In this document: positions 33,411 through 36,278 of the stretch, piece after piece
Layout of the letters: the number at the start of each line of letters is the position of its first letter
How positions within the stretch are numbered: the first letter of the stretch is position 1
Assembly: GCF_029168945.1 (NCBI RefSeq)
Contig: NC_083604.1
Coordinates: forward strand, 8,176,812-8,240,811
DNA: 64,000 bases
From: Cannabis sativa
Lineage: Eukaryota; Streptophyta; Magnoliopsida; Rosales; Cannabaceae
Direction of reading: 5' to 3'
Position numbers and translations under genes: made by a program
The notes under the pieces: generated by a model
What the model saw: the letters and a program-made list of their open reading frames with translations, nothing else
The model's database searches: none
What the model was told of the DNA's origin: nothing

Positions 33411-36278
33411 TGTAATACCCGAAATTAAGAAAAAGGATTAGCAAAGCCCTAAATAGATAATTATGAGTAATTGATGGAATTATATTATTATATAGTTCAA
33501 TATATGTGAAATTATATGAATTTTAATGTGTTAAGACCCCGTTGGTAAGCCAGGGGCATTTTAGTAATTTTGACCTGAGAAGGGTAAAACGATGAAATTA
33601 ATTTAATTACGTGCTTAATAGAACTATATTATTATATAGTATGCCTGTGTAGTCTTTTCAGGTGTGTTCTGACAGGTTGGCGCGGTATAGTCACAACCGG
33701 GTATTTCGCAATTTGAATTCAATTATTGGCATTTTACTTATGTATGAGAAATCTGAATTTATTTGAATGTATTTGTGTTATGTGGAATGACCTAAATGCC
33801 CTTGTTTGGTTTGTTGTGTGTTGAATGGCCTTAAGGGCATTTTGGACCTTTGGCTTTATTATTGGATTTGTTAAGAAAAGAGGTTTATTTTGAGAATTAA
33901 AGGAAATTTCTGGAGTTTTTCTCCAGCCCTAGCTGAAACTCTCTCTTTCTCTCTAAATTCATTCTTGTTCTTGAATTGTTGGTTGAGTTTGGCTTGGAAT
34001 CAAGATTGGTGTTGAAGGCTTTTGTGCTAGAAATTAGGAGGAATTGAGGTAGCTCTTTTACTGAATTTTATTTGAGATTCTTGCTGAATATTATTGTTGA
34101 AAAAGCATGAAATATGATGTGGGTTGTGTTTTTGAGTTTGTGATGCATGTTCTTGGTTGTTGGGGTTGTCTTGAGCATGCTTAGAGCTTTAAATTCATAA
34201 GTTTGTATGGGTTAACTTTGGGCAGAAATTAGAGGATTTGATTAGTGTAATTTTCTGTTGTTGAGCTCTGAAATTTATTGTTTGAAATTGGAGTTCAAGC
34301 TCTTGTTAATGGAAGTTTGTTTGAGATGTAGCTCAAGTTAAAGCTTTGATTTTTATGGATTTGCAATCTGAAATTATGGGGTTATAATGTTGGATTTTGA
34401 TACTTGAGCATGTGTTTTAAACTCCCTTTATGATGATTAAAAACCTATTTTATGGTTTGGGAGTTTTAGTTGTGAATTGGGGTGAAAAGATTGGATTTTT
34501 CTTGCTGAAATCGTGTTCTTGCTGCTGTTTTTCTGGGTTTTGAACCCAGATGCCGCGGCATGGTATTTAGCATGCCGCGACGCGCTCATTTCTTTCTGGG
34601 CAGATCCTTTTAGCAACTTCAAATGGCCATAACTTTGTGATCCGGACTCCGATTTGGGAGTTCTATATACCGTTGGAAAGCTCTTTTTGAGCTCTATCTG
34701 AATATGTGAATTTTAAATGCCATGTGAATATTTTATGAAAATGAAATCAGGGGTTAACCCTATTTGTGAAATCCCGGATTGTGTGACTAGGATTACCGGC
34801 ACCTGATCAGGAGCACCCGGGGATTTGGAATCTCTATCATTGCAGGACATCAGGTAAGACAGTGATTAGCACGTAGAGTATGCGCAGTGGCGCTTATATT
34901 GTGAATGATATGCATGAAAGTTTAGTAACCGGGATTAGGGTTATTACCCTAACATGAGCGGTTTAATAGCCTAGGGTTATTACCCTAGTGATATATGCTG
35001 TATAAATACTATGCCATGTTGGATAAATGTACATATTGAGATTATGAATTATGCGCTTAAGGCATAATTAAGCTAGACTCGGTAAGTTGGTACCTTGAGT
35101 TAATTTTAATGCGGTCTAGGGTTATTACCCTAGAATATTAAGAATCCAGTGAAAGCATGAGTTAGGGTTAACATTCTTAGTAAATGTTATCTGAGTATAT
35201 AGAAGTGTATTATATGAGTGATTACTTGTTTGTAAGTTAGGGTTATTACCCTAAGATTATATATGTTGTAGTAAATGTTGAATACACGCATGTATGTTAT
35301 AAGTTATGTGAATGAGACATAACTGGGTTAGACCTGGTATATATCACCAGGATAAACCATTGAAAGAACGTAATGTATGGATTACGTATATATATAAGAA
35401 TAGGGTTATGCGAGCAAGGCATAACCAGGTTAGGCTCGGTAAGCAAAACCGAGGTAAACCCTACTAAGGCCTTATCGTATATAGACGTGTGAGAGCAACA
35501 CGTAGGTCTACGCCACGTAGACATAAATAGGCATGTGAGCGTAACATGCAGGTCTACAGTAGATAGACCAATGGTGCAGTGGGCACCATCAGTTATGTGT
35601 TATACATATTAAGATTAAGGGTTATGCGTTCAAGGCATAATCAAGTTGGACTCGGTAATCAGAACCGAGATGAACTATTCTAGGGCCTTATTGTAACTAG
35701 ACGTGTGAGAGCAACACGTAGGTCTACGCCACGTAGATAAAAAGAGATGTGTGAGCGCAACACATAGGTCTACGCCATGTAGACATAAATAGGCATGTGA
35801 GTGTGACATGCAGGTCTGTGACACACAGACATATAGAAATGGCATCATTGTTTAAACAGTATGATGAGCATATTATTATTGTTATGTTATATACTGTCTT
35901 GTTGGGCTTGGCTCACAGGTGCTCTACTGTGCAGGAAAGGGTAAGACATTAGCTGATCAACCATGAGTTTCAGGAGCAGGGCGAGGAATGTACATGTTCA
36001 TGCCACTTCAGACCAAGCGGGTTATGGGTCTAACAGTGTTGACTTTTGTATTCTATTTTGCCACTTAGGTCGGCTAGAAAGAAAGGACTTGTAATAAGTT
36101 TGTAAATATTTTTGGGATCCCAACGGTTTAAAAGTTTAAAAGTATTACAAGTTTTATTTTCATTCCGATTAATTTAAAAGTTTAAATTCTGCGCTATTTT
36201 TGATTAGTAATCCCGAATTAGGGGATTAGGATTCCATAAGCATTTTGGGTAGCGTGCCTAATTATTTAGGGCGTTACA
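33411..36278. mobile_element. Solo LTR (2868 bp) carrying a dense hairpin array
   Basis: Begins TGTAATACCCG and ends GGGCGTTACA, with the 5-bp duplication GAAGA at 33406-33410 and 36279-36283. No internal LTR pair, primer site or coding domain is present, so this is a single long LTR left after recombination, or an unusual non-coding element bounded like one. The flanking debris joins in frame across it (GDVNPNSKM…to DLTKVIGHH…). Superfamily unknown; a Gypsy origin is likely from size. Confidence 0.85.
34882..35830. repeat. Array of about 25 perfect hairpins in the solo LTR
   Basis: Stem families (plus strand). A: TTAGGGT/ACCCTAA-type with TATT loop at 34935, 34971, 35115, 35237. B: TTATGC/GCATAA-type with 7-nt loops at 35047 (GCTTAAG), 35302 (ATGT/ACAT variant, GAATGAG), 35404 (GAGCAAG), 35620 (GTTCAAG). 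C: CTCGGT/ACCGAG at 35435 and 35651, CCTGGT/ACCAGG at 35333, all 7-nt loops. D: ACGTGT/ACACGT (35485, 35701), GCATGT/ACATGC (35531, 35793), ATGTGT/ACACAT (35747), loops GAGAGCA, GAGCGTA, GAGCGCA, GAGTGTG. E: GTCTACG/CGTAGAC-type with CCA loop (35506, 35722, 35768) and GTCTGTG/CACAGAC (35814). Others: ACGTAAT/ATTACGT (35368), GGTCTA/TAGACC (35551), ATGGTGC/GCACCAT (35571), GCGC/GCGC (34882). Confidence 0.88.

Follow-up and report, generated by a model that had tools for sequence, protein, structure and literature searches.

A modular array of perfect hairpins with paired arm changes in a solo LTR of Cannabis sativa

Introduction

Why does a single long terminal repeat (LTR) in the hemp genome carry about two dozen short, perfect hairpins within 1 kb, and what keeps the two arms of these hairpins complementary while their sequences change? 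The locus lies in a 64-kb stretch of Cannabis sativa contig NC_083604.1 (hereafter, the window), in which a first-pass annotation, made from the nucleotide sequence by itself, had described some 25 hairpins with changing but still-paired stems, and had proposed either selection for structure or an expansion mechanism that copies hairpins. If stems change in sequence yet remain paired, either selection for RNA shape in a retrotransposon or hairpin-copying mutation would be indicated and, since LTRs are usually present in many copies in a genome, these two possibilities could be distinguished directly by the comparison of copies. The analysis reported here confirmed the observation and partly supported its interpretation: units of one or two hairpins have been duplicated in tandem within the array, and the arms of most stems have changed together between copies.

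The host LTR and its surroundings

The hairpins are located in a complete LTR of 2868 bp at positions 33411–36278 (+ strand), which begins with TGTAATACCC and ends with GGGCGTTACA, thus bearing TG...CA termini. The 5-bp target site duplication GAAGA directly flanks the LTR on both sides (33406–33410 and 36279–36283), with neither an internal region nor a second LTR in between. Repeat comparison returned only the full-length self-hit, with no second copy of this LTR in the 64-kb window; the LTR is therefore a solo LTR, as the first-pass annotation had stated. Its + orientation is presumed from the resemblance of its ends to those of plant Ty3/gypsy LTRs. By the same end sequences, this solo LTR without a coding part is tentatively assigned to the Tekay/Del type of Ty3/gypsy chromoviruses, and the hemp retrotransposon bearing it was probably a Ty3/gypsy chromovirus. 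In addition, the LTR segment 34600–34720, with GGCCATAACTTTGTGATCCGGACTCCGATTTGGGAG...GTTGGAAAGCTCTTT, probably recurs in other plant Ty3/gypsy LTRs.

Several other repeats are present in the window. Two direct repeats of 1362 bp (26167–27528 and 30057–31418), 99.8% identical and enclosing about 2.5 kb, give the stretch 26167–31418 the appearance of an LTR retrotransposon that inserted recently and may be non-autonomous; the 317-aa frame between them (27808–28761) matched no Pfam family at an E-value of 0.001. A Copia-type element at 21105–25889 has 162-bp terminal repeats with 96% identity and encodes its gag and RVT_2 domains in different open reading frames, and 492-bp direct repeats at 48242–48733 and 54125–54616 (98.6% identical, about 5.9 kb apart) form a candidate LTR pair. 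Dispersed, partly inverted repeats of ~280–300 bp at 1824–2103, 16030–16330, and 63722–64000, which are 73–80% alike, are possibly MITEs, and the sequences at 7219–7714 and 60776–61083, with ~69% match to their own reverse complements, are possible MITE-like palindromes. The window also encodes a pentatricopeptide-repeat protein at 58065–59534, with 99% identity to Cannabis sativa CsatB_022464.

Hairpin density and modular architecture

Hairpins were counted as perfect stems with loops of 3–9 nt in the region 34882–35830. This count gave 24 hairpins with stems of at least 6 bp, occupying 34935–35830 on the + strand, and 27 with stems of at least 5 bp, in agreement with the approximately 25 hairpins in under 1 kb originally claimed. 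Dinucleotide-shuffled sequences did not approach this density: in 2000 shuffles, the mean number of hairpins with stems of at least 6 bp was 1.87 and the maximum 7, with none giving 8, and the concern that shuffled sequence might be equally rich in hairpins was thereby removed. A smaller set of 100 shuffles gave a mean of 1.76 and a maximum of 6 at this stem length, a mean of 6.0 and a maximum of 12 for stems of at least 5 bp, and a mean of 0.53 and a maximum of 3 for stems of at least 7 bp, of which the array contains 12. A chance origin of the hairpin array is ruled out by these shuffles. Furthermore, mirror repeats, which are unable to pair, numbered only one in the array region under the same counting rule.

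Among 133 overlapping 949-bp segments, the four that overlap the array include those ranked first to third (z = 16.3, 11.9, and 10.4) and one, containing the array start only, ranked eighth (z = 5.1); the best segment off the array has a z of 6.8. In the rest of the LTR, the hairpin count is near expectation, with 4 hairpins (2.65 expected) in the 1471 bp upstream of the array region and 2 (0.85 expected) in the 448 bp downstream. The same count in six other repeats of the window found 1–6 hairpins and at most one 7-nt loop in each; the 492-bp direct repeat of the candidate LTR pair contains 5 hairpins versus 1.6 expected, with a maximum of 5 in 200 shuffles. Loops of 7 nt, described at the outset as predominant, indeed close 14 of the 24 array hairpins, versus 47 of 379 hairpins from 200 shuffles. 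Position 5 is a purine in all 14 of these loops, located within 35047–35811, and position 4 is a pyrimidine in 11 of them, a bias that may reflect descent because many of the hairpin copies are related.

Much of the hairpin count stems from the tandem duplication of modules, and the suggested expansion by hairpin copying is borne out in this form. The array comprises five copies of a 46-nt, two-hairpin U unit, four BC modules with two hairpins in about 63 nt, four family D hairpins, and three singletons. Family D, TAGGGTTATTACCCTA, is represented by TTAGGGT-tatt-ACCCTAA at 34935–34952 (D1) and again at 35237–35254 (D4), CTAGGGT-tatt-ACCCTAG at 34971–34988 (D2), and TCTAGGGT-tatt-ACCCTAGA at 35115–35134 (D3). 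The BC modules are located at 35045–35107 (copy a, with hairpin B at 35047–35069, having an 8-bp stem and a 7-nt loop, and a C hairpin whose stem is bulged in the predicted fold), 35300–35362 (copy b, hairpins 35302–35324 and 35333–35351), 35402–35464 (copy c, 35404–35426 and 35435–35453), and 35618–35680 (copy d, 35622–35640 and 35651–35669). The U units are located at 35483–35528 (copy a, hairpins 35485–35503, ACGTGT-gagagca-ACACGT, and 35506–35522), 35529–35574 (copy b, 35531–35549, GCATGT-gagcgta-ACATGC, with the second hairpin re-registered to 35551–35569), 35699–35744 (copy c, 35701–35719 and 35723–35737), 35745–35790 (copy d, 35747–35765, ATGTGT-gagcgca-ACACAT, and 35768–35784), and 35791–35836 (copy e, 35793–35811, GCATGT-gagtgtg-ACATGC, and 35814–35830, GTCTGTG-aca-CACAGAC). 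The singletons are TAACATT-cttagta-AATGTTA (35169–35189), ACGTAAT-gtatgg-ATTACGT (35368–35387), and ATGGTGC-agtgg-GCACCAT (35571–35589). Self-comparison showed a higher-order duplication within 35402–35784 (+ strand), in which 35402–35568 and 35618–35784, each with a BC module and U units, are 81% alike.

When the modules were collapsed to 504 non-redundant nucleotides, 9 hairpins remained versus 1.15 expected, a number reached in none of 1000 shuffles. Covariance models of both modules detected no convincing further copies in the 64-kb window, and their minus-strand hits were weak (E = 0.54 and 0.99) and were taken as chance. A protein search with the 100-aa minus-strand frame spanning the array yielded no translated array copies, and one exact-pattern scan each of a viral and a genome contig collection gave no match, as expected for a plant LTR.

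Paired changes between repeat copies

The copies compared were repeats within this one LTR, with three to five related copies per family, and the p-values given here ignore their genealogy. Between these copies, 12 stem pairs have changed on both sides with pairing kept, namely 5 of 13 in the U units, 6 of 18 in the BC modules, and pair 1 of family D. In the alignment of the five U units, 96.9% of 65 cells are paired, and the covariation score of 0.408 was equaled in none of 500 shuffles (0.235 on shuffling), with scores of at most 0.138 when the partners were slid. The four BC modules gave a score of 0.389 versus 0.238 for shuffles, 1 of 500 being as high, and at most 0.176 with slid partners; the bulged C stem of copy a was included in this alignment and excluded from the family C comparisons. 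RNAalifold, with no structure supplied, returned the same hairpins for both modules. Among the five measures used, that of further pair types was no higher than in shuffles, with 500 of 500 (U) and 226 of 500 (BC) at least as high.

In families U1, B, C, and D, the two arms split the copies in the same way at 26 of the 27 pairs. Column permutation, from which family U2 was excluded, gave p-values of 0.017 (U1), 0.0035 (B), 0.066 (C), and 0.14 (D), and a Fisher-combined value of 3.4 × 10−4, all of which ignore the genealogy of these few repeats. Pairwise stem differences between copies were likewise mostly two-sided: 16 of 16 in U1, 9 versus 3 one-sided in B, and 4 versus 0 in each of C and D. 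In U2 the split was 11 to 11, in part because the copy at 35552 re-registers its stem. In U1, stem (0.27) and loop (0.26) vary to the same extent between copies, and the family D loop never differs. In families B, C, and U2, the loops differ more than the stems, so that the stems are conserved in sequence too, beyond pairing.

Selection on pairing and alternative explanations

Two-sided changes with pairing kept suggest that the folded shape of the hairpins has been preserved, as tested on one LTR copy. Selection on the array is supported, short of proof, and we give the hairpin pairing an even chance of being under selection.

A rather unlikely alternative is mutational self-templating, in which a template switch inside a hairpin during replication or reverse transcription copies one arm into the other, so that stems arise and become perfect again without selection, and tandem duplication then spreads them; paired changes can also result from template-switch repair. 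According to the excerpted text of one study, stems can originate by template switching, which may also restore them to perfection, and there is an enrichment of patterns in which several mismatches are converted simultaneously (PMC8794818). Consistent with such a process, two double changes lie close together in one copy in three families (U1 pairs 1 and 3, U2 pairs 5 and 6, and C pairs 2 and 3), imperfect stems are rare, and the array includes several hairpin sequences unrelated to one another. The same excerpt reports enrichment of 4-nt loops (56 vs. 42%) and, slightly, of 7-nt loops (9.6 vs. 7.6%) among instant paired changes (PMC8794818), so that the loop length of the array does not decide between selection and self-templating. 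On the other hand, a check of U1, B, C, and U2 (family D and the U2 copy at 35552, whose stem re-registers, being excluded) found no loop that resembles a sister loop more closely in inverted than in direct form. Also speaking against self-templating, the substitutions in stems are almost all transitions (25, with 1 transversion), versus 12 transitions and 8 transversions in loops, and three places retain G-T pairs that arose by a change on one side. The stem-versus-loop transition bias has a p-value of 0.006 with both sides counted and is weak (p = 0.048) with each pair event counted once, or 0.011 without the one transversion, which belongs to the copy at 35552; this copy was included in the covariation, stem/loop, and transition counts. 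Since the stem changes are nearly all transitions, the keeping of pairing via G-U steps fits somewhat better than template-switch repair.

Similarly unlikely, in our estimate, is that the array functions as double-stranded DNA, its palindromes being cis-regulatory sites for transcription factors that bind as dimers, a function proposed for the Sirevirus LTR repeats and box I of Tnt1. Palindrome clusters of plant LTRs are known and have been proposed to be regulatory in the excerpts considered here (PMC2829016; PMC10760457), and the TCGGT/ACCGA arms of two array hairpins are shared with the Barbara repeat of the former. However, the arms, which would be the part read by a dimer, vary together, whereas the GAGNG part of the U1 spacer is constant in all five copies, and manual grouping gives at least eight different palindromes rather than one motif. 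The loop motif GAGNGNN, initially described as kept within a family, holds for all five U1 copies and for that family only.

Returning to selection on pairing, the decay of symmetric CpG sites had been named as a process that can mimic paired changes, and this caution was justified for 4 of the 12 double changes (U1 pairs 2 and 3, U2 pair 6, and C pair 3), in which both sides are CpG in some copy; the U2 copy at 35552 was excluded from this listing. The remaining eight have no CpG explanation on both sides, upholding the claim of paired change beyond CpG decay and ruling out such decay as the full explanation. The individual examples put forward as non-CpG fared unevenly: pair 1 of the GCATGT stem and pair 2 of CCTGGT/CTCGGT stand, and the third pair in each of the GCATGT and CTCGGT stems can be explained by CpG. 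As all 12 double changes are transitions, C-to-T decay outside CpG could add to them. A scenario in which a few hairpins that arose by chance were duplicated in tandem, and symmetric CpG decay later mimicked covariation, is very improbable, since, despite the clear duplication of the modules and the four CpG-compatible pairs, neither the eight other double changes nor the hairpin excess in the non-redundant sequence fits it.

Folding, strand, and a possible role

The folding energy of the array region is lower than that of shuffled sequence on both strands (z = −8.0 on + and −7.9 on minus; 20 shuffles each), and, when folded with their surroundings, 20 of the 24 hairpins on the + strand and 17 on the minus strand exceed a mean pair probability of 0.5. 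On the + strand, a manual count in alignments A1 and A2 gave 6 G-U versus 3 A-C cells, which is close to the ~1.45:1 expected from the G+T-rich composition and no clear excess. TATA-like motifs of the + strand fall within the hairpin array; one of these, TATAAATA at 35001–35008, is a candidate promoter core by motif scan only and, if used, would place 22 of the 24 hairpins downstream, inside the transcript. No Rfam family matched the array at gathering score, the only match in the whole window being a tRNA at 19546–19619. A microRNA precursor was set aside because the array stems are only 6–8 bp long.

Under selection on pairing, the folded shape would matter in the RNA or the single-stranded cDNA stage of the element, with stem changes passing through putative G-U intermediates, and with loops of mostly 7 nt presumably presented on the 6–8-bp stems. 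The most likely role might then be that of a repeated binding platform in the element transcript, for instance for Gag or a host RNA-binding protein, and such a putative platform could act on packaging, translation, or transcript stability. In its most specific form, this proposal is that a plant retrotransposon evolved a modular, duplicating, covarying array of RNA hairpins with 7-nt loops in its LTR as a multivalent signal within its own RNA, read by loop and shape rather than by stem sequence, one example being packaging hairpins that bind Gag at dispersed sites; we consider this form doubtful.

Comparison with known systems

The nearest likeness is to the LTRs of Sireviruses (Ty1/copia), which share with the hemp array many short palindromes within a few hundred base pairs of one plant LTR. 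As described in the excerpted text of PMC2829016, these LTRs contain palindromic repeated motifs, one motif per element with 66.5–100% identity, that carry a CGG-CCG core in 12 of 13 elements and for the most part occupy the upstream LTR half, with up to 32 palindrome units in one element when LTR and linker are taken together. Unlike this arrangement of one motif with short spacers (as read from the consensus sequences in that excerpt), the hemp array has several unrelated stems, mostly 7-nt loops, and paired changes. In place of one palindromic motif in at least eight copies, at least eight distinct stems are found, the largest family having five copies, and the CGG-CCG core is present in only 2 of the 24 array hairpins (35437 and 35653). 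If the presumed + orientation holds, the array occupies positions 1525–2420 of the 2868-bp LTR and thus its downstream half, rather than the upstream half and the sequence upstream of the TATA box; in the opposite orientation, it would lie at 449–1344, within the upstream half. Core, spacer, and motif diversity (and position, if the + orientation is right) differ from those of Sireviruses, and Sirevirus membership is not claimed.

Other systems share single features with the array. In maize LTR retrotransposons, predicted RNA structure is concentrated in the LTRs of Copia elements, and palindrome clusters of LTRs have been linked to small RNAs (Bousios et al., 2016, as cited in the excerpt of PMC10760457). 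The hemp array resembles these structured regions in the concentration of structure in the LTR, but its 6–8-bp stems are far shorter than those of miRNA-like hairpins. With the hairpins attributed to template switching, it shares perfect stems maintained via paired changes; those described in the excerpt of PMC8794818 are in RNA genes, mostly rRNA, whereas the hemp stems are in an LTR, with 7-nt loops dominant and no loop inversion in the four families checked. The plant enod40 RNA, compared by the description in the excerpt of PMC10578108, has stem-loop modules that derive from transposons and have expanded as tandem repeats, as in hemp, but in a host non-coding RNA gene rather than in the LTR itself. 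Among the matches listed, no title or abstract opening pointed to an LTR with an array of covarying hairpins, which is not proof of absence, and the excerpt of PMC3601003, on LTR models in general, contains nothing resembling a hairpin array. Palindrome clusters of plant LTRs are treated in the excerpted literature as DNA regulatory motifs or as small-RNA triggers (PMC10760457; PMC2829016). Overall, the hemp hairpin array is real and unusual, and probably represents a variant of these LTR palindrome clusters.
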